A stretch of DNA of 32,475 bases, taken from a virus. The translations under genes were made by a program, and so were the position numbers. Each line of letters opens with the position of its first letter. The first letter of the stretch is position 1. The stretch lies in IMG/VR virus record IMGVR_UViG_3300011934_000016, positions 1 through 32,475 of that record. One strand, written 5' to 3'. The notes under the pieces are model-generated. The model had not been told where the DNA came from, did no database searches, and was given only the letters and a program-made list of their open reading frames with translations. This document shows positions 52-23,646 of the stretch, in pieces.

Positions 52-318
52 TTACCCCCTGGATTCCAACAGGCGCGGCAACTTGTGGAGGCTGCCCACT
101 TCTGCACGGAACTTCTCGGCATCCAGCGCTGTTCTGGCATTCGCCACGATTTCTTTGCTCACGCTGGTGACCGACTGGGCCCGCTTCATTTCCTGTTCCA
201 GCTTGTCGCCAGCCAGCTCCGGATCGTTCAGGCGGTCCAGCTGGTCGAATAGTGCGCCGTTCAGCTTTTCCAGGGCGCTTGGCTGGTGGTCTTTTGTGGT
301 TGCGTTCTTGTCAGTCAT
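52..318 (-). CDS. Conserved-type phage hypothetical protein, 88 aa
   Basis: The start is the ATG at 318, preceded by AAGGAG and overlapping the 3' end of the csrA-like gene by 8 nt. An in-frame ATG further upstream (444) lies inside csrA and has no such ribosome site. The protein is charged and probably all-helical; its LNGALFDQLDRLNDPEL core (residues 16-32) resembles a small helical family (LND-LFxQLDRL) often seen in the regulatory arms of temperate phages of gammaproteobacteria. No catalytic motif or membrane segment is visible. Function unknown. It is translationally coupled to csrA, so the two are probably co-expressed from the leftward promoter near 1350. Confidence 0.75.
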   Translation of the reverse strand: MTDKNATTKDHQPSALEKLNGALFDQLDRLNDPELAGDKLEQEMKRAQSVTSVSKEIVANARTALDAEKFRAEVGSLHKLPRLLESRG

Positions 319-499
319 TGGAGGACTCCTTATTTCTCTTCCGGTCAATCTCTTCGCGATCAATCCGCACACTTTGCGGTGCGCTGACCCCCACGCTCGT
401 GCGACCTGCTTGGCAGCGCAGCACCGTGAATTCGATTCGCTCACCGCGGGCGGTGGTGGCCACGATGGTTTCGCCTGGCTGGCGGCTTAATGACAGCAT
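311..499 (-). CDS. csrA: CsrA/RsmA-family RNA-binding regulator
   Basis: This 62-residue protein aligns over its whole length with CsrA, the homodimeric regulator that binds GGA motifs in mRNA leaders and changes translation or stability. Visible family features are the start MLSLSRQPGET (L4, R6, G9, E10 kept), the VGVSAPQSVRI strand and DREEI, whose Arg48 corresponds to the essential Arg44 of E. coli CsrA. About four extra residues sit in the loop between the first two strands (TTARGE). The gene overlaps its neighbours on both sides (shared base at 499, 8 nt at 311-318), so it is an integral member of the phage operon and not a host gene. Its targets cannot be read from the sequence; they may be host mRNAs or the phage's own. 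The assignment to the family is strong; the biological role in the phage is inference. Confidence 0.88.
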   Translation of the reverse strand: MLSLSRQPGETIVATTARGERIEFTVLRCQAGRTSVGVSAPQSVRIDREEIDRKRNKESSND

Positions 500-729
500 C
501 AGAACGACCCCTCCCAGCGCTCAGCGCCTTCGTATTCATCACCGCCTGTGGCGTGCCACCATTCGCCCTGCTCGTCGTAAGCGATGCAGCCGGGCATCCA
601 GCCCTGGGCGGTTTCGTTGGTCAGGTGGCGAGTCCACCCGGCGATTTCGTAGTGAAAAACGATCACGTAGCCGCCTTCGAAGCCTTCGTTTTCCCGGTAG
701 GCCTGCACTCTGTCTTTCAGACGCTTCAT
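499..729 (-). CDS. Small hypothetical protein, 76 aa, aromatic-rich
   Basis: An ATG at 729 follows GAGGTGGCAGC and overlaps the stop of the upstream gene by four bases (ATGA). The protein has a basic N-terminus (MKRLKDRVQAYR) and an aromatic, acidic C-terminal half with many Trp/Tyr (W32, W44, WW57-58, W72) and two or three probable beta strands (GYVIVFHYEIAGW). I do not recognise the family. The aromatic content suggests a small folded beta domain. It lies between the LuxR-like gene and csrA in one transcription unit. Confidence 0.65.
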   Translation of the reverse strand: MKRLKDRVQAYRENEGFEGGYVIVFHYEIAGWTRHLTNETAQGWMPGCIAYDEQGEWWHATGGDEYEGAERWEGSF

Positions 730-908
730 GCTGCCACCTCACTGCCAAGCCACTGCTGGCGGCGCTTGCGGTTACCTGGTGCAAGCTGGTGGTCTTTCGG
801 CAGCTCATGCAGCAAGGGCTGATTCATGCGCCGCCGGCGTTCGTTCTGGTGCTCGATGACTTCGATCACGCTACCCGGCGAAGCGCCGCGCTTTTTCTTC
901 AGGAACAT
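726..908 (-). CDS. Small basic hypothetical protein, 60 aa
   Basis: The start is placed at the ATG at 908 (MFLKKKRGASPG) because GAGGAG lies about 6 nt upstream; a longer reading from 923 would start within that ribosome site. The protein is Arg/Lys-rich (KKKRG, NERRRR, GNRKRRQQW) with a short helix, and could bind nucleic acid. No known domain is recognised. It is coupled by ATGA overlap to the 76-residue gene downstream and lies 11 nt after the stop of the LuxR-like gene. Confidence 0.55.
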   Translation of the reverse strand: MFLKKKRGASPGSVIEVIEHQNERRRRMNQPLLHELPKDHQLAPGNRKRRQQWLGSEVAA

Positions 909-919
909 GGCGTAACTCC

Positions 920-1309
920 TCACGAATAGGTGGCCCGCACAGCGGTGCGGCCAATGGTGGTGCGTACAACGGGTGGGCGTGTGCCGTTAACGGGCCGGGG
1001 GTGGCTCCGCATGGCTGGCGCCACAGCGCACAGCATCAGCACGAAAGCCAGCGCGCGGGCTTTGAACAGCCCATGCATCCAGCCTTGTGATATGAGATCT
1101 ACCCGGTTGTGGGCGTGTAGCTGCGCCTGCGCTTCTTCGAGGTGAGATGAAACCGTTCCCGGCGAAATGCCCAACTTTCTGGCGATCTCTTTGGTGGATA
1201 GCCCCATGGCTGCCAGGCGGACCACTTCGGCGCGACGGGCTGGCATTAGGTGTTGCTCCGCCAGCTCAAGCTCCATGCGTGGATAGGTGGTTTTTGCTCT
1301 GCGACCCAT
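920..1309 (-). CDS. LuxR/GerE-type HTH protein with a C-terminal hydrophobic segment
   Basis: This is the first gene of the leftward operon. Residues 22-75 form a LuxR-type DNA-binding domain: GLSTKEIARKLGISPGTVSS followed by the recognition-helix tail HLEEAQAQLHAHNRVDL is the canonical pattern. No receiver or autoinducer domain precedes it; only about 25 basic residues do. Residues 84-97 (KARALAFVLMLCAVAPAM region) are hydrophobic enough for a membrane segment or a buried helix, and the rest is Pro/Arg-rich. Start ATG at 1309 with GGGAG about 8 nt upstream. The likely role is transcriptional control of phage or host genes, possibly the lysogeny programme, since the promoter carries the same operator-like motifs as the cI/cro region. 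The target is unknown. Confidence 0.8.
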   Translation of the reverse strand: MGRRAKTTYPRMELELAEQHLMPARRAEVVRLAAMGLSTKEIARKLGISPGTVSSHLEEAQAQLHAHNRVDLISQGWMHGLFKARALAFVLMLCAVAPAMRSHPRPVNGTRPPVVRTTIGRTAVRATYS

Positions 1310-1334: not shown

Positions 1335-1432
1335 ATGGATACAGAGTATACGCGGTGTATCTACTCGTCAATACGTTTTGTATCTTTATTGGATACAAAA
1401 TGGCTCGGGTATAACAAGTTTATGTATCCAAA
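1335..1432. promoter_or_regulatory. Leftward promoter with clustered repressor-like operator motifs
   Basis: On the minus strand TATACT (1350-1345) is a good -10 with TTGACG at 1371-1366 as a -35 (15-nt spacer, short). The segment is dense in GGATAC/GTATCC motifs: GGATACA at 1337-1343, TGTATC at 1356-1361, an inverted repeat TTTTGTATC/GATACAAAA at 1376-1384 and 1392-1400, and TGTATCCA at 1423-1430. The block around the -10 (GTATACTCTGTATC) nearly repeats the one in front of cI (GTATACTTCTGTATC). The straightforward reading is that the phage CI repressor, or its Cro partner, binds here and controls the LuxR/CsrA operon. Confidence 0.65.
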
Positions 1433-1466
1433 GGGAAACTTGGGGGGAATTATTTTGCCGGCGGGC

Positions 1467-1494
1467 ACAAAAAAGCCCGCTCGGTGGCGGGCTC
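1467..1494 (-). terminator. Intrinsic terminator of the cI operon
   Basis: GCCCGC (1475-1480) and GCGGGC (1487-1492) form a GC-only stem with a 6-nt loop. Read on the minus strand the stem is followed by six T residues (complement of 1469-1474). It lies about 30 bp past the last gene of the cI operon and separates that operon from the LuxR/CsrA promoter. Confidence 0.85.
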
Positions 1495-1524
1495 TTATCT
1501 TTATCTGGCGAATAACTCGTGCTG

Positions 1525-1749
1525 TCAGCTTCCGGAAAAGCGCATGATGGCAAATACCAGCCCGCCCATCGCGATGATGGTGCCAACGCTCCACATGATC
1601 TGCTGGCGCAGCAGGGAGTGCACCTCCGCTTTCAGCTCAAGCACATCGGCCTTGGTAGCCATAGAGGTGTCCAGCGTGCTTTGCATATGCTGAAGGGTTC
1701 CTTTCACAGAGACCATATCTTGCTCAAGGTGCCTGATTCTCTCTTCCAT
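1525..1749 (-). CDS. Small coiled-coil protein with one C-terminal membrane segment
   Basis: The 74-residue product has a predicted coiled coil over residues 1-46 (MEERIRHLEQDMVSVKGTLQ and on, heptad-like L/M/V spacing) and a single membrane segment at about 50-70 (IMWSVGTIIAMGGLVFAIM), ending in a short tail. The fold resembles small XhlA/DUF1640-like phage membrane proteins. ATG at 1749 has GGAGG 5 nt upstream. It overlaps the preceding gene by 46 bp in another frame. The same frame is open upstream to 1815 and encodes a Gly/Asn-rich stretch without a start codon (see findings). Because it is the last gene of the cI operon it should be made in the lysogen, so a role at the inner membrane such as superinfection exclusion is possible but unproven. 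Confidence 0.7.
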   Translation of the reverse strand: MEERIRHLEQDMVSVKGTLQHMQSTLDTSMATKADVLELKAEVHSLLRQQIMWSVGTIIAMGGLVFAIMRFSGS

Positions 1750-1982
1750 ACCGCCTCCGGATCCGTTTCCACCATCATTGTGGCCGCCGCCGGCAACATT
1801 ACTGGTGCGGGTACATCACCCAGAACATCGAGCGTGAAGTTATCGTTTTGACAAACTTCACAGATTGCCTGTTCCCATCCCGTCCTCTTCAGGAAGGCAT
1901 GAATATCGGAAAGCTTAATATCCAGGCTACTGGCAAACGCCTTTAACCTTTCTTCAGGGATGTCTGGAAAAGAATCGCCCAC
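1704..1982 (-). CDS. Hypothetical protein with a single C-x-x-C pair, 92 aa
   Basis: GTG start at 1982, 5 nt after the DUF4124 gene. The N-terminal half is helical (IPEERLKAFASSLDIKLSDI), followed by AICEVCQNDNFTLDVLGDVP, where CEVC looks like the first half of a zinc ribbon. A second Cys pair, which zinc-ribbon proteins of this size usually have, is absent. The C-terminus (from about residue 66) runs into the overlap with the next gene and may be divergent or frameshifted. I do not recognise a named family. It sits in the repressor operon and so is probably expressed in the lysogen. Confidence 0.55.
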   Translation of the reverse strand: MGDSFPDIPEERLKAFASSLDIKLSDIHAFLKRTGWEQAICEVCQNDNFTLDVLGDVPAPVMLPAAATMMVETDPEAVWKRESGTLSKIWSL

Positions 1983-1987
1983 GGTGT

Positions 1988-2614
1988 TTATCCCTCTTGC
2001 TCACAGGCTTGAACTTCTTCCAGAGCTTCCGGAAAGCCCCGTGCTGTCATCTCGCCTGAATCGTATGTTTCATCATATGGCCAGAAACGAAGCCTTACTT
2101 TGAAGTAGTCAGCTTGGCGCAGCTCCTCCACGATCTGGCCGGAGGTGTTCGGCTCAAAGCCCACAAAATAGCTTCCGTGGCTCAACTGGAACTCTCTGAA
2201 CTCAGACTCTCCTACCTTCAGGCCCAGGCCGTCTATGTTGTTATGTATGGATGGCGCCCTACTGCCTGCTGAAGGTTCACTGCGGACCCCTGCAACGTAA
2301 CCCACGTCCGACGTGACCACTCGCAAAGTTGCGAACAATGGGTCGGATCCGTCCATTCCAAGGTAAAGCGTCGGAGACATGGCCACACAGGAGGTCGTGC
2401 CAGTCATGTCATCTTCAGAGCGCTGCACATGCCACCCTTTGCTTTTTGGCTTGGAGCGCTTGCTCTCGTTGCGGATCTCGACCTTCTCAGCAGTCTGCCC
2501 GCAGGGCTGATCAGAGAACACGGTTTGGCCGCCCTCTTCACACTTGTAAACAGCGGCATGAGCGCTGGCGGAAAGGGCAAAGGTAGCGGTAAGGGCAAAT
2601 TTGAAGAGTTTCAC
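1988..2614 (-). CDS. Exported DUF4124-type protein, lysogenic-conversion candidate
   Basis: The 208-residue protein starts with a classic Sec signal peptide (MKLFKFALTATFALSASAHA, cleavage after residue 20), so the mature part acts in the periplasm or beyond. It is followed by the DUF4124 signature: VYKCEEGGQTVFSDQPCGQ, with the paired Cys of that domain. The remaining 150 residues are a beta-rich domain with no motif I recognise; further Cys at about 76 and 204 could form a second disulfide. GTG start at 2614 with AAGGA upstream, only 24 nt after cI, so it is co-transcribed with the repressor. A secreted protein made from the repressor transcript fits a moron that alters the host envelope, for instance excluding other phages. 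The function is inferred. Confidence 0.8.
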   Translation of the reverse strand: MKLFKFALTATFALSASAHAAVYKCEEGGQTVFSDQPCGQTAEKVEIRNESKRSKPKSKGWHVQRSEDDMTGTTSCVAMSPTLYLGMDGSDPLFATLRVVTSDVGYVAGVRSEPSAGSRAPSIHNNIDGLGLKVGESEFREFQLSHGSYFVGFEPNTSGQIVEELRQADYFKVRLRFWPYDETYDSGEMTARGFPEALEEVQACEQEG

Positions 2615-2638
2615 GGCATCATCCTTGAGTTTCTGGGT

Positions 2639-3454
2639 TTATCGGAGGACTGACCACCAGAATACACGGCCAATCACGTTAACGTGTTGCGCCATTTCCT
2701 CGGCGTCCAGCTGTTCCACTGGGTGCTCGGCACTATTTTGGCTCACGATCTTGATGCCACCACCTGGCCGGCGGTGGAGGTACTTCACGCGGAGCATGCC
2801 GCCGTGGTCTATGGCGTAGATCTCGCCATCACGAATGGACTTGTCGGCCGTATTCACCCCTACGCAGGTGCCGTCTGGCATAACCGGCTCCATAGAGTTG
2901 CCCCGCACAAAGGCACAAGCAGCGGCCTCTGCCGGCACCCTGGCTCGGCTTAAAGTGGACTTGGCAAAGCGCAGCTTGGCACCTTGGTTCTCTATTACCT
3001 GTGTGGCGCCACCTCCGGCCGCCAGTTCGACTTCCCTAAACAATGGCAACTCCACTTCGTCTTCATCTAATGGCGTGCTGCTATCCCATGCATCCATGTG
3101 GCCGAAGAATTCAAGCTCATCCCTGAACATATCAGGTGTAGGGTCTTCCGCTACCGAAGGGGGAGCCTTGGCCGCATTTGTTGGCTCGGTGTACACGATT
3201 TCCTCGGAATGGCTCTGCTCTGGACTTTCAAGCTCAAACAGGGGGCTCTTACCCTCTCCCCGGATCAACCATTCGAGCCGGACTCCAAGGTGATTGGCCA
3301 AGTCAGTCAACTGCTGTATCGATAGCTCTCTTCTACCGCTCAAATAATGCCCAACAGCGCCTCGCGTAGAAACGCCAAGCACAGACTTCAGGGATTCCTG
3401 AGTGATTTTGTTTTCTTTCATTACCGCTTTCGCGCGGCTCTGCCATGTTTCCAT
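2639..3454 (-). CDS. CI-type phage repressor (HTH plus S24 self-cleavage domain)
   Basis: This 271-residue protein has an N-terminal lambda-repressor-like HTH (about 5-66, SLKSVLGVSTRGAVGHYLSG) and a C-terminal S24/LexA-like peptidase domain. Catalytic Ser187 lies in GNSMEPVMPDG and Lys224 in LRVKYL; the probable autocleavage site is Ala146-Gly147 in VELAAGGG. It should therefore hold the prophage silent and be inactivated by RecA after DNA damage. The linker (about 70-135) is acidic and long. The start is taken at the ATG at 3454, as it begins the HTH domain; no strong ribosome site precedes it. An in-frame ATG at 3535 would begin inside the operators. It is divergent from the Cro-like gene and heads an operon with three cargo genes. 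Confidence 0.92.
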   Translation of the reverse strand: METWQSRAKAVMKENKITQESLKSVLGVSTRGAVGHYLSGRRELSIQQLTDLANHLGVRLEWLIRGEGKSPLFELESPEQSHSEEIVYTEPTNAAKAPPSVAEDPTPDMFRDELEFFGHMDAWDSSTPLDEDEVELPLFREVELAAGGGATQVIENQGAKLRFAKSTLSRARVPAEAAACAFVRGNSMEPVMPDGTCVGVNTADKSIRDGEIYAIDHGGMLRVKYLHRRPGGGIKIVSQNSAEHPVEQLDAEEMAQHVNVIGRVFWWSVLR

Positions 3455-3496
3455 ATTGGCAATGGTACGCAATGTACCCGACTTGGCAACGACACT

Positions 3497-3547
3497 TTTC
3501 GTATCCAACGCTTGACTCGATACAGAAGTATACATATCGTACCTACT
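3497..3547. promoter_or_regulatory. cI/cro divergent promoters and operators
   Basis: Rightward: TTGACT at 3512-3517 and TATCGT at 3535-3540 with 17-nt spacing place the transcript start within a base or two of the cro ATG. Leftward: TATACT at 3532-3527 is a -10 for cI. Operator-like elements are GTATCCA at 3501-3507, GATACAGA at 3519-3526 and GTATAC at 3528-3533, the same sequence words as in the LuxR/CsrA promoter. Confidence 0.7.
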
Positions 3548-3787
3548 ATGAACATTCAGACCTACATTAAGCAGGTAGGACTGGAAAATGCCGCACGCAC
3601 CTTGGGCGTTTCCGTTCCTGCAGTTAAGCACTATCGAAACGGCATCCGGCGCGTTGCTCCGGCGAGCGCTCTTTCTGTGTGCGCGGCAACTGGCTGGCAA
3701 GTAACCCCTCACGAACTCCGGCCAGACATTTACCCGAACCAGACAGACGGCCTGCCCGCTGATAAGCATGGAGGCACGGCCGCCTGA
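3548..3787 (+). CDS. Cro/YdaS-family transcriptional regulator
   Basis: The 79-residue protein has the YdaS-like Cro pattern: MNIQTYIKQVGLENAARTLG then VSVPAVKHYRNGIRRV and the characteristic tail ATGWQVTPHELRPDIYP. Proteins of this type act as the lytic counterpart of CI at shared operators. It is the first rightward gene, divergent from cI. The ATG is placed at 3548 because the HTH begins there; there is no Shine-Dalgarno sequence, and the predicted transcript starts essentially at the ATG, suggesting a leaderless message. Confidence 0.87.
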   Translation: MNIQTYIKQVGLENAARTLGVSVPAVKHYRNGIRRVAPASALSVCAATGWQVTPHELRPDIYPNQTDGLPADKHGGTAA

Positions 3788-4647: not shown

Positions 4648-4683
4648 GCCCGGCTCAAACGGTGTGGGGACACCTCGCCGGGC
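4648..4683. other. Nested stem-loop between rusA and rha
   Basis: GCCCGGC (4648-4654) pairs with GCCGGGC (4677-4683), and inside it GGTGT (4661-4665) pairs with ACACC (4670-4674). On the plus strand no T run follows; on the minus strand the stem is followed by TTTTC. It may protect or attenuate the early message, or end antisense transcription. Confidence 0.5.
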
Positions 4684-4705
4684 AATCAATCAAGAGGTAC
4701 AGATT

Positions 4706-5440
4706 ATGTCTGATTTAACCCTTCAAGTGAATACCCAGTCGCTCATGATGAGCAGCCGGGAGATCGCCCAGGTGGTGGAGTCTCGCCACGACAGCGTTAA
4801 GCGAACAATGGAAACGCTGGTAGCCAAGGGCCTGATTGCTTTTACACAGACGGTGGAAAAGACCAGCGGGCGGCCTGCATCCATCTTCTGGGTTGGAAAG
4901 CGTGACAGTTACGTGGTGGTTGCTCAGCTTTCCCCTGAATTCACTGCGCGCCTGGTCGATCGTTGGCAGGAGCTCGAAGAAAGCGCGGCATTACCAGCAT
5001 GGGCCCGAAACCTTAGCCAGGCTGCCCGCATTGCATTGGAAGACCTCAATTCTCAAGTCGATCACTACAAGGGCGAGACCGCACGCCTGAACACCGTCTG
5101 CAACGACCTCGCGCAGAACCTGAAGGACGGAATCACCCCTGTGGAATTCTGCCGGATGCTGAACGGTGTGCACCTGAATCGCGTTCAGCCGGACCTGGTG
5201 GAGCGAAAACGCCTTCTAAAGACCGATCATGGTTACCGCACCCCCGCCGCCTACCGTGGTGACCTGTTCGTTGAGCGCCGCTATTTCAACAAGGAAGGCC
5301 GGCTCTGCGAAAAGGTAATCCTCACCCAGAAAGGCGCCAAGTGGCTGTATGCCGAGTACGAGAAAGGCCACCTGACCATGAAACAGGACTGGGACGGAAA
5401 CTTCAGCCACCTGGTGTTTGAAAGCGGGGTGGCGGCATGA
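4706..5440 (+). CDS. rha: Rha-family phage regulatory protein / antirepressor
   Basis: The 244-residue protein begins with the Rha domain (MMSSREIAQVVESRHDSVKR, about 11-30; then a winged-helix body through GKRDSYVVVAQLSPEFTARL and VDRWQELE). A central helical segment (about 105-145) leads into a C-terminal KilAC/ANT-like domain (GITPVEFCRMLNGVHLNRVQ and RGDLFVERRYFNKEGRL). This two-domain build is common in phage antirepressors and early regulators. The start ATG at 4706 follows GAGGTACAGATT; an upstream in-frame ATG lies inside the stem-loop and is less likely. It overlaps the next gene by four bases. Which repressor it counters, if any, is unknown. Confidence 0.85.
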   Translation: MSDLTLQVNTQSLMMSSREIAQVVESRHDSVKRTMETLVAKGLIAFTQTVEKTSGRPASIFWVGKRDSYVVVAQLSPEFTARLVDRWQELEESAALPAWARNLSQAARIALEDLNSQVDHYKGETARLNTVCNDLAQNLKDGITPVEFCRMLNGVHLNRVQPDLVERKRLLKTDHGYRTPAAYRGDLFVERRYFNKEGRLCEKVILTQKGAKWLYAEYEKGHLTMKQDWDGNFSHLVFESGVAA

Positions 5441-5757: not shown

Positions 5758-6722
5758 GAGCAAGAAATATCAAACCTGGATTCTGGAAAAACGAAGACCT
5801 GGTGGAGGTGCCGTTCGAGTACCGGCTACTGTTCATCGGCCTGTGGATGCTGGCGGACCGTGAAGGCCGGCTGGAAGACCGCCCGAAGCGAATCAAAATG
5901 GAGTTGTTCCCGGCGGATAACGTGGACGTGAAGGAGGGCCTGGACGATCTGTGCGAGCTGGGTTTACTGGAGCGTTACGAAGCCGAGGGTGTGAATGTCC
6001 TGCTGATTACGAAATTCGCTGACCACCAAAGCCCGCACCACTCGGAAAAACGCAGTGAACTTCCGGGGAAAGACGGTTACGCCACCGATAAAGCACCGAA
6101 GAAGGCAAGCTCTCAGACGGTTAAAGGAAAGGCCGAACCACGTAAACCTACACAGCCAGAACCAGAGACTAACGGTAACGACAACGAAGACCCACAAGAG
6201 ATTCACGGTGAACCTACCGTAGGTTCACGCAACTCTAACGGTGGAAATCGCCCTGATTCTCTGAATCCTGATTCACTGAATCCTGAATCCATAAACACAC
6301 TTGGCCCATCGGCAAGCGATGAGCCCACACAGGCTGAGCCAGCAAAGCCGGACAGCGCTGAGAAAAAACCAGCATACCCCCATGAGTTCGAGCTGGCTTG
6401 GCAAAAATACCCGAAGCGCCCAGGCAGCAACCCGAAGCGCAAGGCCTACCAGGCATGGCATGCCCGGGCCAAGGAAGGTTACGACCCCGCCCAGATGCTG
6501 GCTGGCGTTATCCGCTACGCGAAGTTCTGCGCCACCACCGGCAAGGCGAACACCGAGTACGTGATGCAAGCTCAACGGTTTTTCGGCCCCTCAGCGGAGT
6601 TTGAAAACGAGTGGTCACCGCCTGAGCAGTTCCCCGATCGGCCCCGCCACACCGGTTTCATCGAAATCGATTACAGCCAAGGCTTGAAGCAGGAGGTGCC
6701 CGATGGCGTCGCCAATTTCTGA
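5754..6722 (+). CDS. Phage replication initiator (O-like)
   Basis: GTG start at 5754, overlapping the previous stop. Residues 1-85 are a winged-helix replication domain common in phage replisome organizers (IKPGFWKNEDLVEVPFEYRL, LFIGLWMLADREGRLEDRPK). Residues 90-205 are a low-complexity acidic/Pro/Asn linker. The C-terminal domain, about 206-300 (YPHEFELAWQKYPKRPGSNP, and the Tyr/Phe-rich AQRFFGP), resembles helicase-recruiting or ssDNA-binding domains of such proteins. It is followed at once by a DnaC-like loader, the usual O/P pairing. The linker-coding DNA contains palindromes and direct repeats, as the lambda O gene does at the origin. Confidence 0.82.
   Translation: MRARNIKPGFWKNEDLVEVPFEYRLLFIGLWMLADREGRLEDRPKRIKMELFPADNVDVKEGLDDLCELGLLERYEAEGVNVLLITKFADHQSPHHSEKRSELPGKDGYATDKAPKKASSQTVKGKAEPRKPTQPEPETNGNDNEDPQEIHGEPTVGSRNSNGGNRPDSLNPDSLNPESINTLGPSASDEPTQAEPAKPDSAEKKPAYPHEFELAWQKYPKRPGSNPKRKAYQAWHARAKEGYDPAQMLAGVIRYAKFCATTGKANTEYVMQAQRFFGPSAEFENEWSPPEQFPDRPRHTGFIEIDYSQGLKQEVPDGVANF
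6202..6290. repeat. Palindromes and direct repeats inside the replication gene, origin candidate
   Basis: Three elements cluster. TTCAC-g-GTGAA (6202-6212) overlaps a 10-bp-arm inverted repeat GTGAACCTAC-c-GTAGGTTCAC (6208-6228). Then a 15-bp unit, CTGATTCTCTGAATC (6253-6267), is repeated with one mismatch at 6268-6282, with a partial third copy at 6283-6290. The repeats lie in the linker-coding part of the initiator gene, the same position as the lambda O iterons. A markedly AT-rich unwinding element is not obvious, so origin function is likely but not certain. Confidence 0.55.
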
Positions 6723-7530
6723 AATGCTTGGCCAGGAGAACGGCCGGATGGATCACCTGCTGGGTGTGGATGATCGGCGTGAAGGCCTCTGCGAACAGCA
6801 CGGCAATTTCATCGACGTACACCACAGCGGCAAGGGCAAGATTTCCGAGGGCTGGCGGGGCTGCCCTGAGTGCGAGGCCGACCGCCACCGCGAACGCATG
6901 GCCGAAGAAGAGCGCCAGCACCAGATGCAAATGCTCCGCAAGCGCGCCGAACGCTTTGTGGCCAGCAGCGGCATTCCCAAGCGGTTCATGGGCAAGAGCT
7001 TTGATAACTACCAGCCCGTTAACGGCAAAGCCTCAACCATCCTGCGCAAGATTCGCGACTATGGCGACACCCTGGCCAGCGGTGATCACGAAGGCCGCTC
7101 ACTGATCATGCTGGGCAACGTGGGCAACGGTAAAACGCACCTGGGCTGCGCGCTGCTGGCGGACACGATTCTTCGCACCTGCAAGCCAGGCCGGTATGTG
7201 ACGTTCGCCGAGATTGTGCGTGATGTGAAAGGCAGCTGGCGGAAAGATGCCGGTTACACCGAGCAGGACGTGTACGACCGTTTCGCCAAGCCGGCACTGG
7301 TGGTGCTGGACGAAGTGGGCATGCAGAACTTCACAGACTTTGAGCAAACCGTGGCCTATGAAGCAATCAATGCCCGCTACCTGGAAGAAAAGCCCACCGT
7401 GGTTATCACCAACCTGCCGGCCACTGAGCTTTCGGCCTGCCTGGGTGAGCGCGTGGTGGATCGCCTGCGCGAGAACGGCGGCAAAGCACTGGATTTTGAC
7501 TGGAACTCATATCGGAACGGAGCAAATTGA
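6703..7530 (+). CDS. dnaC: DnaC-like AAA+ helicase loader
   Basis: The 275-residue protein has a Walker A motif GNVGNGKT (138-145) and Walker B LVVLDE (199-204), followed by ITNLPATEL (sensor-I-like, 235-243) and VVDRLREN with the arginine-finger region. This matches DnaC/DnaI-family loaders that place the replicative helicase at the origin. The N-terminus holds Cys30, His33, Cys54 and Cys57, a probable zinc-binding helicase-contact module. AGGAGGTG lies just before the ATG at 6703, so the start overlaps the initiator gene by 20 bp. It works with the initiator upstream. Confidence 0.92.
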   Translation: MASPISEMLGQENGRMDHLLGVDDRREGLCEQHGNFIDVHHSGKGKISEGWRGCPECEADRHRERMAEEERQHQMQMLRKRAERFVASSGIPKRFMGKSFDNYQPVNGKASTILRKIRDYGDTLASGDHEGRSLIMLGNVGNGKTHLGCALLADTILRTCKPGRYVTFAEIVRDVKGSWRKDAGYTEQDVYDRFAKPALVVLDEVGMQNFTDFEQTVAYEAINARYLEEKPTVVITNLPATELSACLGERVVDRLRENGGKALDFDWNSYRNGAN

Positions 7531-9330: not shown

Positions 9331-9354
9331 CAATTTCTCATTACTGGATACACT
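9327..9354 (+). promoter_or_regulatory. Late promoter (PR'-like)
   Basis: A perfect -35 TTGACA (9327-9332) and TACACT (9349-9354) are separated by 16 nt. The -35 overlaps the stop codon of the Q-like gene. The expected start is near 9361, only about 20 nt before an intrinsic terminator. The -10 also overlaps TGGATACA (9345-9352), one of the words of the repressor operators, which may be chance. Confidence 0.8.
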
Positions 9355-19974: not shown

Positions 19975-22900
19975 ATGGCGTTGAAAGACTCAATCATCAA
20001 TCTGGTGCTTAAAGGTAAAGACCTAATCAGCCCCGCCACGGAATCTGCATCTGACAGCGTTGGCAAGCTGCAAGAGCGCAGCGACGAACTTAACGCTGCC
20101 CTGGGCAAGCTCAACAACACCCAGAAGAACATCAAAGAATTTAAACGCCTTGGCAACGAAACCGACCGGCTCGAGAAGAACTGGCGCGATGCCGAGGCGG
20201 AAGTCACCCGGCTGAAAAAGGCCTTCCAGTCTACCCAGAAGCCCACCAAAGCCATGGCCCGGGAACTGGACAAGGCGGAAAAATCCGCCAATGGCGCGAA
20301 GACTGCTTGGCTGCGAAACCGCGAAGCCATAGACCGCCTCAGCCCGCGCCTGAAAGCCGCCGGCGTAAACATGCGCAACCTGGACCAGGCACAGGACAAC
20401 CTCGAACAATCCTCCCGCCGCCTGCGCACCGATTTGGCCGGCGTAGACACCCAACTGAAGAAACAGAAAACCAGCGCCAAAGGCTCCGGCAAGGCCATGG
20501 ATGAAGCCAGCACCGCTGCTGGCGGCTTCACCACCAAAATGAAAGCCGCAGCCGCCGGCCTCGTGGCCTTCGTTGGTGCCGCCGTAGGCCTGCAGAAAAT
20601 CCGCCAGGGCTTCATTGCCATTCTGCAAACCGGCGACCGCTTCGAAAAGCTGGACGACCAGCTCACCCAGGTATTCAACAGCGTTGAAAAAGGTGAAGAA
20701 GCCAGCCAGTGGATACAGAAATTTACCGCTGAAACACCGCTCCAGCTGGAGCAAGTGTCTCAGGCCTTCATCCGCCTGAAGAACTTCGGCATTGACCCCA
20801 CCAACGGCACCCTTCAGGCCCTGGTAGACCAGAACGAAGCCATGGGCGGCAGCTATCAGGATCTGGAAGGCATCATCAATGCCGTTGGCCAGGCATGGGC
20901 CAAACAGAAATTGCAGGGTGAAGAAATCCTGCAGCTGATCGAACGCGGTGTGCCGGTGTGGGAACTGCTGGCGGAAGCCACCGGCAAGAACGTCACCGAA
21001 CTGCAGGAAATGTCCTCCGCCGGTGAGCTGGGCCGGGAAACCATCGCCGCTCTCACCCAAGAGATCGGCAAGGCCAGCCAGGGCGCCGCTGCTGAAAGCA
21101 TGGGCCGGCTTTCTGGCCTTGTGTCCAACCTGAAAGACCAGTGGGACCAGTTCCTGAACCTGATTGCCGAATCCGGCTCGCTGGACTACGTGAAAGGCCA
21201 GCTGCAGGAACTGCTCACCACCATTGTTGAGCTCCGCCAGAACGGCACCCTTGAGCGCTGGGCGCAGAACATCAGCGATGCCATTGTCTCCATCGGCAAA
21301 GCCGTCCGGAGCAGCGTTTCCACCGTTGCCGAATACAAAGACGAACTTCTGCTGCTCGGCAAAGCTTTCGTGGCCCTCAAAGTGGCCGGAGCGGTAAAGG
21401 CTCTGGGCGCATGGACAATGGCCCTTCGGGCGTCCCGCGCCGAAATGATGGCCGCCAGCGCCCAGGCCGCCGCCACATCCAAAGGCTTCAGCGCCCTTGG
21501 CCGCGTGGCTATGGGCCTGGCAAAGCCCATTCCCATTACGCTGGCCATCATCGGCCTGAGTGCTGCCGCCAAAGGGCTGGACACCATCACCGCGAAGATC
21601 CGCGGCGTCGAGGATGCGCAGCGCCGGCTGGCCCTGCAAGAAAAGGAAATCGAACTCCAGCGCCTGCGCGAAATCAACCAGCTCAAACGCAAAGCCCAGG
21701 CCCTGCAAGATTACGCCGATGCCACAGTGCGCACCGGTGCCGAAGTAGCAGACATGAGCCAGGAACAGCGCCAGGCCTATGCAGACCAACTGTCCAACGC
21801 GCGGGAATACTACGAGTACGCCATTGATGCCCTCGAGCGCCAGACCGCCATGGGGCAAGACGTCACCACGGAACTGGCGAACATGCGCGGAGAGCTGCAG
21901 CAGGTTAACCAGTCGCTGAAGACCGTCTCTGATGAATCCATCCGAGCCGGTGAAGCCCTGCGCATGGGCATCACCAAAGAGGCACTGGACGCCCTCACCG
22001 CTTTCACCAATTTGAAAGCCGAAGGCCTGGCCACCACAGATGCTCTGCAAAAATCCTTCGACAACCTAGACCTGCGCACCCCCGAGGGCGTCACCTCCAT
22101 GGCCCAGGCACTGGCCAGCCTGGTACGCACGGCCCAAGTCAGTGGCCAGGAAATCAAGGACGGCCTGCTTCAACCCCTCGAGCAAATCAGCAACAGCGGT
22201 CTGTCCCAACTGCAGCGCAAATTTGCCGAAACCATGAACGGCGCCCAAGCAGATGCCAAGCGCACCGGCCAGGTCATGGACAGCGTTCTGGGTGAAGCCT
22301 TCTCTCGCCTGGGAGCCGACCTCACCAAAGCCCAAACCGGCATTACCGAAACCGGACAATCAGCCATTGATGCGTTCGGCGTGGTGGTAGAAAACCTCGA
22401 CGTTGCCGGCCGATCTGCCAAAGAAAACGCGGCGATCCTCGAAGAATCGTTCACCGGTGCGCTGCAAAACATATCCACCGAGAAAGGCCTGAAAGAGCTG
22501 CTAAAGCAGCTGAAAGAAGCCCAGGCCAACGGCATTGATACCAGCGCAGCACTGGCGCAGGTGCGGGATCGGTTGCGCGAGATTCGCCAGGAACAGGATG
22601 ACGACAACAACGACATAAGCAAGCCGCTCAAAGAAGGCAAGGACGCTGCTGAAGACGCGAAGGAAGAAATCACCCGCCTCTCCCAGACCCTGGGTAACAC
22701 TGGCGAAGAAGCCCAGCAGTTCAAACAAAAATGGCAAGACGCCTGGGGCGGCGCCTTCGGCAAAGCCATTTCACAGGCCCGCCAAAAGGTAACCGACCTC
22801 TCCACCGCCGCCCGCAACCTCTTTGAAATGAAAATTGGCGGCAACGCCTTCGTCAAAGAAAGCGAGTCAGCCGACGAAGCCCTGCAGCGCGCCACCCAGC

Positions 22901-23646
22901 GAGTCCACGAACTGGCCAGCGCCCGCCGGCGGCTGATGAACAGCTCCCTCGGTGCCTGGTTTGCCGACACCGCCTTGCGTGCTGCAGAGGTGGAACAGAA
23001 GTTCTGGGCGCAAGCCAAGGCCATGGAAAACCTCACCGAAAAGGTTAACAACGGCTCTTACTCCATGAGCCAGCTCAACAGCCTGAGCGATCGCGCCGCC
23101 AACAAATTTGACCTGCTCGACAGCCAACAACTCAACGGCCTGCAGCAAGCCATAGACAGCGCCCGGCAAAAGCTCGACAGCCTCAACTCCAGCGCAGACA
23201 GCACCCTCAACAGCCTGCAGCAACGGCTGGCGGACATCCGAGGCGACACCGAAGAAGCCCAGCGAATCCAGTACGAAGCCGAACGCGAACGCCTGCAGGC
23301 TCAACTTGAACAGGCCCGCAAAGCCGGTGCCACTGACGCGGCTGCAGACTACCAGCGTTCACTGGACACACTCGAAAAGATCTACGCCATCGAACAGAAG
23401 AACCGCCGGGAAGAGCAAAACGAACGCGAGAAACAGGCCGCCGATCGGGCGCGCGAGCAAGAAATGGCCGAGCTCGAACGCCAGCGCTCCCAACGCGAGC
23501 AAACCCAGAACAACACCCGGCAGCAAACCACCCAGCCCGTGAAAACCGTGAACGTCAACCTGGGTGGCGAAACCTTCCGAGTGCTTGCAGACGATGAAAA
23601 CGCCTTTCTCAAGGCCCTCGAAAGCGCCAAAGGAACCGCCGCATGA
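19975..23646 (+). CDS. Tape measure protein
   Basis: This is the longest gene, 1223 residues. It begins with a helical region (LQERSDELNAALGKLNNTQK), then contains the conserved tape-measure domain (about 220-395: FEKLDDQLTQVFNSVEKGEE, WIQKFTAETPLQLEQVSQAF, VPVWELLAEATGKN, LKDQWDQFLNLI). Hydrophobic stretches near 183-204, 458-490 and 515-532 could span a membrane. The last 250 residues are strongly coiled-coil (Gln/Arg/Glu-rich). It sets tail length and is ejected with DNA; at about 1.5 angstrom per residue the tail would be near 180 nm. It overlaps the next gene by four bases. No tail-chaperone pair lies in the 70 bp upstream. Confidence 0.96.
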   Translation: MALKDSIINLVLKGKDLISPATESASDSVGKLQERSDELNAALGKLNNTQKNIKEFKRLGNETDRLEKNWRDAEAEVTRLKKAFQSTQKPTKAMARELDKAEKSANGAKTAWLRNREAIDRLSPRLKAAGVNMRNLDQAQDNLEQSSRRLRTDLAGVDTQLKKQKTSAKGSGKAMDEASTAAGGFTTKMKAAAAGLVAFVGAAVGLQKIRQGFIAILQTGDRFEKLDDQLTQVFNSVEKGEEASQWIQKFTAETPLQLEQVSQAFIRLKNFGIDPTNGTLQALVDQNEAMGGSYQDLEGIINAVGQAWAKQKLQGEEILQLIERGVPVWELLAEATGKNVTELQEMSSAGELGRETIAALTQEIGKASQGAAAESMGRLSGLVSNLKDQWDQFLNLIAESGSLDYVKGQLQELLTTIVELRQNGTLERWAQNISDAIVSIGKAVRSSVSTVAEYKDELLLLGKAFVALKVAGAVKALGAWTMALRASRAEMMAASAQAAATSKGFSALGRVAMGLAKPIPITLAIIGLSAAAKGLDTITAKIRGVEDAQRRLALQEKEIELQRLREINQLKRKAQALQDYADATVRTGAEVADMSQEQRQAYADQLSNAREYYEYAIDALERQTAMGQDVTTELANMRGELQQVNQSLKTVSDESIRAGEALRMGITKEALDALTAFTNLKAEGLATTDALQKSFDNLDLRTPEGVTSMAQALASLVRTAQVSGQEIKDGLLQPLEQISNSGLSQLQRKFAETMNGAQADAKRTGQVMDSVLGEAFSRLGADLTKAQTGITETGQSAIDAFGVVVENLDVAGRSAKENAAILEESFTGALQNISTEKGLKELLKQLKEAQANGIDTSAALAQVRDRLREIRQEQDDDNNDISKPLKEGKDAAEDAKEEITRLSQTLGNTGEEAQQFKQKWQDAWGGAFGKAISQARQKVTDLSTAARNLFEMKIGGNAFVKESESADEALQRATQRVHELASARRRLMNSSLGAWFADTALRAAEVEQKFWAQAKAMENLTEKVNNGSYSMSQLNSLSDRAANKFDLLDSQQLNGLQQAIDSARQKLDSLNSSADSTLNSLQQRLADIRGDTEEAQRIQYEAERERLQAQLEQARKAGATDAAADYQRSLDTLEKIYAIEQKNRREEQNEREKQAADRAREQEMAELERQRSQREQTQNNTRQQTTQPVKTVNVNLGGETFRVLADDENAFLKALESAKGTAA

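Follow-up and report, generated by a model that had tools for sequence, protein, structure and literature searches.

The 32,475 bp virus contig IMGVR_UViG_3300011934_000016 (IMG/VR; the entire record, without host flanks, hereafter the window) very probably carries a lambda-type two-promoter immunity switch, in which CI and Cro would act on RTAC-N5-GTAY operators and the luxR/csrA operon would stay off until induction. On sequence grounds the luxR/csrA unit is the early-left (PL) operon of the phage, because the palindromes over its promoter match each phage's cI-cro gap and CI. The sites themselves, their overlap with promoters, their near-absence elsewhere and their change in step with the CI DNA-binding domain can all be read directly from the DNA. 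The genes concerned, with helix-turn-helix (HTH) domains assigned by Pfam, are:

2639..3454, minus strand: cI, with an N-terminal HTH (PF01381, 1.7e-8) and an S24 peptidase domain (PF00717, 2.5e-21)
3548..3787, plus strand: cro, YdaS-type HTH (PF15943, 1.8e-9; phrog_35, 2e-20)
920..1309, minus strand: LuxR-type (GerE) HTH protein, first gene of the PL operon (PF00196, 6.5e-14)

A sequence-only reading had described dense clusters of GGATACA/TGTATCC in two places. The exact word is found at 1337-1343 (plus), 1391-1397 (plus) and 1423-1429 (minus), and elsewhere in the window only at 9346 and 20711. Its GATAC/GTATC core reaches five copies in ~92 bp (1338-1428), compared with a maximum of three per 92-bp span in 300 first-order Markov sequences. 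At 3501-3533 there are only shorter cores, GTATCC (3501-3506) and CGATACA (3518-3524), with no copy of the exact 7-mer, so that the description fits the left region (1337-1430, three copies) and not the right. The nearly identical block of 14-15 bp reported from both regions is real, one inserted base aside (GTATACTCTGTATC at 1351-1338 and GTATACTTCTGTATC at 3533-3519, minus strand). The shared vocabulary is also real, but its better unit is RTAC-N5-GTAY, one copy of which (3465-3477) falls outside the proposed cluster at 3501-3533. This pattern occurs five times in the window (1348-1360, 1371-1383, 3465-3477, 3530-3542 and 21807-21819) compared with a Markov mean of 0.26, and its reversed control is absent from the window. 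Four of the five copies lie in the luxR promoter and the cI-cro gap; the last, within a long open reading frame (19975-23646), is probably a chance occurrence. The pattern was derived from the window together with relatives in class 1 (classes are described below), and the window count is therefore not independent, while the other classes and the comparisons are. It likely represents the predicted CI/Cro site.

CI relatives were collected from 26 viral loci, with others added from genomes and a profile search. The CI protease domain is 78-91% identical to that of the window in a 14-member alignment. The N-terminal HTH falls into at least seven unrelated specificity classes in Marinobacter and viral contigs, with class representatives 12-48% identical. 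The cI-cro gap was compared with the luxR promoter in 23 loci carrying both genes, a few of which are close relatives. In every class, the luxR-promoter palindromes match the cI-cro gap of the same phage: both places hold GATAC-type sites in class 1, AACAAC-N4-GTTGTT in class 2, ATACG-N4-CGTAT in class 3, TTACC-N4-GGTAA in class 4, ATAGC-N4-GCTAT in class 5 and TAAAC-type sites in classes 6 and 7. The two regions share a mean of 12.4 7-mers within a class and 2.75 between classes. Nor is the motif equally common elsewhere, as whole-record scans of the window, L005 and ten records of four other classes reveal. In L005 (class 1) all four RTAC-N5-GTAY copies sit at the same two places, and in the ten records of classes 2-5 the class palindrome is confined to the luxR promoter and the gap between cI and cro, and the control gave no hits; the coding copy in the window is the only palindrome outside both regions in classes 1-5. 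The suggestion that the LuxR/CsrA operon belongs to the immunity regulon is thus supported, in that its promoter palindromes track the CI DNA-binding domain across relatives. It had been portrayed as a distant target; a second CI/Cro target it appears to be, but, being the usual early-left operon found in lambda-like switches, it is not unexpected.

A natural swap experiment, in which exchange of the repressor DNA-binding domain is accompanied by a change of the distant operator cassette, is provided by loci L003 (class 1), L010 (class 3) and L028 (class 5). Their LuxR proteins are 98-99% identical, the upstream DNA (-400 to -101) is 94-96% identical and the stretch from leader through luxR 95-97%. 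The promoter/operator cassette of ~75 bp in between is only 61-65% alike, each version matching its own CI; the HTH domains, compared between representatives of the three classes, are only 23-48% identical. The upstream DNA of L003 holds an open reading frame (6653-7423) divergent from luxR, and the cassette therefore sits between two conserved stretches. For the pairs L011/L012, L019/L023 and L019/L020, homology begins only near the luxR leader, hence a longer stretch was exchanged there. L011 and L012 have LuxR proteins 97% identical, yet these are encoded behind different palindromes. Because the palindromes follow the CI DNA-binding domain while luxR, its leader and flanks are nearly constant, these comparisons tie the luxR promoter to CI, Cro or both, and not to LuxR.

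The promoter and operator features of the window are as follows:

1345..1371, minus strand: PL core, TTGACG (1371-1366), 15-nt spacer, TATACT (1350-1345), from the sequence
1348..1360, minus strand: predicted OL site ATACACCGCGTAT over the spacer and -10 of PL (the luxR promoter); RTAC-N5-GTAY, in the same place over PL in relatives
1371..1383, minus strand: predicted OL site ATACAAAACGTAT, an RTAC-N5-GTAY palindrome adjoining the PL -35
1337..1343, plus strand: extra half-site just 3' of the PL -10 (GGATACA match), completing the 14-15 bp block
1376..1400: 25-bp inverted repeat TTTTGTATC-N7-GATACAAAA, partly covering the -35 OL site and extending upstream of it
3462..3489, minus strand: PRM, TTGCCA-N16-TACCAT, with the -10 ending 7 nt ahead of the cI ATG
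3465..3477: predicted OR3-like operator GTACGCAATGTAC over the PRM -10, kept in class 1 relatives
3512..3540, plus strand: PR, TTGACT-N17-TATCGT, with the -10 ending 7 nt ahead of the cro ATG
3530..3542: predicted OR1-like operator ATACATATCGTAC over the PR -10, kept in class 1 relatives
3501..3524: half-sites GTATCC (3501) and GATACA (3519) flanking the PR -35

Each region thus has two clear palindromes and half-sites. The centres of the two OL sites are 23 bp apart in the window and those of their counterparts 24-26 bp apart in relatives; the PL -35 and -10 each carry a palindrome, at a distance of 23-26 bp, in classes 1, 2, 3 and 5. TTGAC beside the first palindrome is kept across classes, and in classes 1, 2 and 4 the second OL palindrome is followed by a similar third half-site. 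The 25-bp inverted repeat may be an auxiliary site or auxiliary half-sites.

In the cI-cro gap, the minus-strand TATACT at 3532-3527, previously taken for a -10 element, is probably not one; TTGCCA-N16-TACCAT is a better PRM, and its spacing between -10 and ATG is similar in relatives. The half-sites flanking the PR -35 are a possible OR2, with a spacing between halves that varies in relatives; given this variation, GTATC-N7-GATAC and GTATC-N13-GATAC were dropped as operator candidates. Both the cI and cro messenger RNAs look leaderless, judging from promoter position. When window positions 3454-3548 were compared with the matching gaps of L003, L010, L012, L016, L018, L019, L020 and L054, the hexamer 7 nt before the cro ATG averaged 3.8 of 6 matches to a -10 element, other distances scoring no higher than 2.5, and the cI -10 hexamer was found 6 or 7 nt before its ATG in most loci compared. 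In the 11 loci checked, no Shine-Dalgarno word was seen ahead of cro; the phages of class 2 differ, having a leader before cro that includes a GGAG-type word.

Other explanations of the luxR-promoter repeats were considered. They stand directly upstream of a gene for a DNA-binding protein and could be autoregulatory sites for the LuxR HTH that resemble CI operators by chance. This is very unlikely, as the near-identical LuxR proteins of the trio and of L011/L012 are found behind palindromes that differ and follow the CI class. Chance is harder still to credit, namely that the words of any two promoters would look alike because their DNA is A+T-rich within a G+C-rich phage. TTGAC and TATA-like words are indeed present in both regions, but such an effect predicts equal sharing in mismatched pairs, which was not observed: the same promoters share few 7-mers between classes (2.75, compared with 12.4 within), and outside these regions the records have next to no copies of the palindromes. 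That Cro alone or CI alone acts on the luxR promoter is improbable, although less so. The two proteins differ together between classes, so their co-change cannot separate them; against a single regulator stand the same palindrome type and promoter overlap at PR, PRM and PL, the binding of lambda PL by both CI and Cro, and CP-933P reporters, where each of the three promoters is repressed by both proteins (PMC8630535).

Several observations weigh against the two-promoter switch as proposed. CI and Cro are indistinguishable as readers of the sites because both change together, and either could serve. The 15-nt PL spacer of the window is short (16 nt in L003 and L005), a simple palindrome leaves both the extra half-sites and the 25-bp inverted repeat at PL unexplained, and no clean OR2 was seen in the cI-cro gap. 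Word sharing is weaker in classes 4, 6/7 and 8, and weakest in class 8 (L059). When word sharing was first tested, on eight classes, the observed value was reached by 3 of 40,320 permutations at k=7 and by 7 at k=6, the observed assignment counted in both; the matched assignment was not uniquely best because classes 6 and 7 (HTH 44% identical) have one operator type in common. With these two merged, the matched assignment ranks first among 5,040, a merger decided after the first result had been seen and needed for a uniquely best assignment.

Under the two-promoter switch, CI in the lysogen would occupy PR, PRM and, 2.2 kb leftward, PL, keeping cro and the operon from luxR to csrA off. DNA damage would lead to CI self-cleavage through its S24 domain, as the presence of that domain suggests. 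PR and PL would then fire together, releasing cro and the luxR/csrA operon, and Cro would shut off cI through the site over PRM. The steps of this scheme, from binding and repression to SOS induction and the action of Cro, are inferred, as is any looping between the operator sets. A more elaborate proposal, which we regard as tentative and rather doubtful, is that immunity specificity shifts when two separate islands, the ~75 bp PL cassette and the block of cI N-terminus and cro, are exchanged in concert with the CI protease domain, luxR and flanks fixed, and that release of PL at induction deploys a LuxR-type plus CsrA-type regulator pair as a dedicated takeover module in place of lambda N.

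The remainder of the PL operon and the end of the cI unit comprise:

726..923, minus strand: small gene, no family by Pfam and phrog comparison
499..729, minus strand: small gene, kept in several relatives (44-52%)
311..499, minus strand: CsrA-like gene (Pfam PF02599, 5.9e-12)
52..318, minus strand: further gene (phrog_2044), kept in several relatives
1469..1493, minus strand: intrinsic terminator separating the cI operon from PL, a 10-pair hairpin followed by a T-run

Since the terminator (1493-1469) ends the cI unit ahead of PL, the two leftward transcription units are probably separate. The LuxR-type protein has counterparts of 46-65% identity in the relatives compared, and a csrA-like gene lies downstream of luxR in many of them. 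By eye, the HTH of this protein is followed by a hydrophobic C-terminal segment and a short tail, likewise in relatives, and it might be membrane-attached. Farther along the PL-operon strand, HNH endonuclease and DHH-family genes were observed in one Marinobacter genome (L032:8787-14324) and a C-5 cytosine methylase gene in another (L035:10551-14155).

CI relatives in named genomes are chiefly from Marinobacter, and the host is therefore most likely Marinobacter or a near relative. Marinobacter nauticus DSM 50418 carries two related prophage loci, L029 and L030. CI had no match to solved structures by sequence; Cro gave a weak match to Cro proteins. A nucleotide search of phage records returned short matches only, those listed being mostly to Rha-like and other genes, with no relative of the switch region, and a LuxR query against viral contigs led to no confirmed relative. 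A Rha/Ant-type antirepressor-like gene (4679-5437) downstream of cro is kept in most relatives. We found no paper describing this arrangement in Marinobacter prophages, nor as a LuxR/CsrA phage operon.

The lambda PL operon has the N antiterminator where this phage has a LuxR-type HTH gene followed by a csrA-like gene. As in lambda, cI and cro are divergent, predicted operators overlie PR, PRM and PL, the repressor is of S24 type and cI appears leaderless; unlike lambda, the operator is RTAC-N5-GTAY, PL has two clear palindromes and cro too looks leaderless. The first PL gene encodes a GerE/LuxR-type HTH protein and no N-type first gene was seen, hence we do not class the phage as lambdoid. 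The operator sets lie ~2.2 kb apart here, compared with ~2.3 kbp for the two sets of three operators in lambda (PMC5880393). In CP-933P of E. coli O157:H7 (PaaR2/YdaS), a CI-like protein and a YdaS-type Cro have common operators in the cI-cro gap, and in reporters both repress PRM, PR and PL933P (PMC8630535). The Cro of the window likewise matches the YdaS family; unlike the present phage, CP-933P has a toxin-antitoxin operon with its repressor, genes of unknown function behind PL933P and the inverted-repeat consensus GTTTAGTAA.

The apparently leaderless cI and cro resemble those of PY54, whose cI and cro messenger RNAs are both leaderless (PMC4488713). The telomere phages N15, phiKO2 and PY54 are, unlike this one, linear plasmid prophages, and the OL sites of N15 lie upstream of repA instead of a luxR/csrA operon. 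The site motif tracks the repressor class as in Cluster A mycobacteriophages, where binding-site motifs vary in step with the repressor (PMC6550527); the Cluster A stoperators are asymmetric and genome-wide, whereas the palindromes here are limited to two promoter regions.

We know of no established role for csrA in phages. A survey has recorded csrA genes in phages (PMC7366521), and our analysis places such a gene under likely prophage repressor control. The lambda two-promoter design would extend to Marinobacter-type phages, among which at least seven immunity specificities occur; this switch differs from known ones in its operator sequence and in having a LuxR-type gene at the head of the PL operon.
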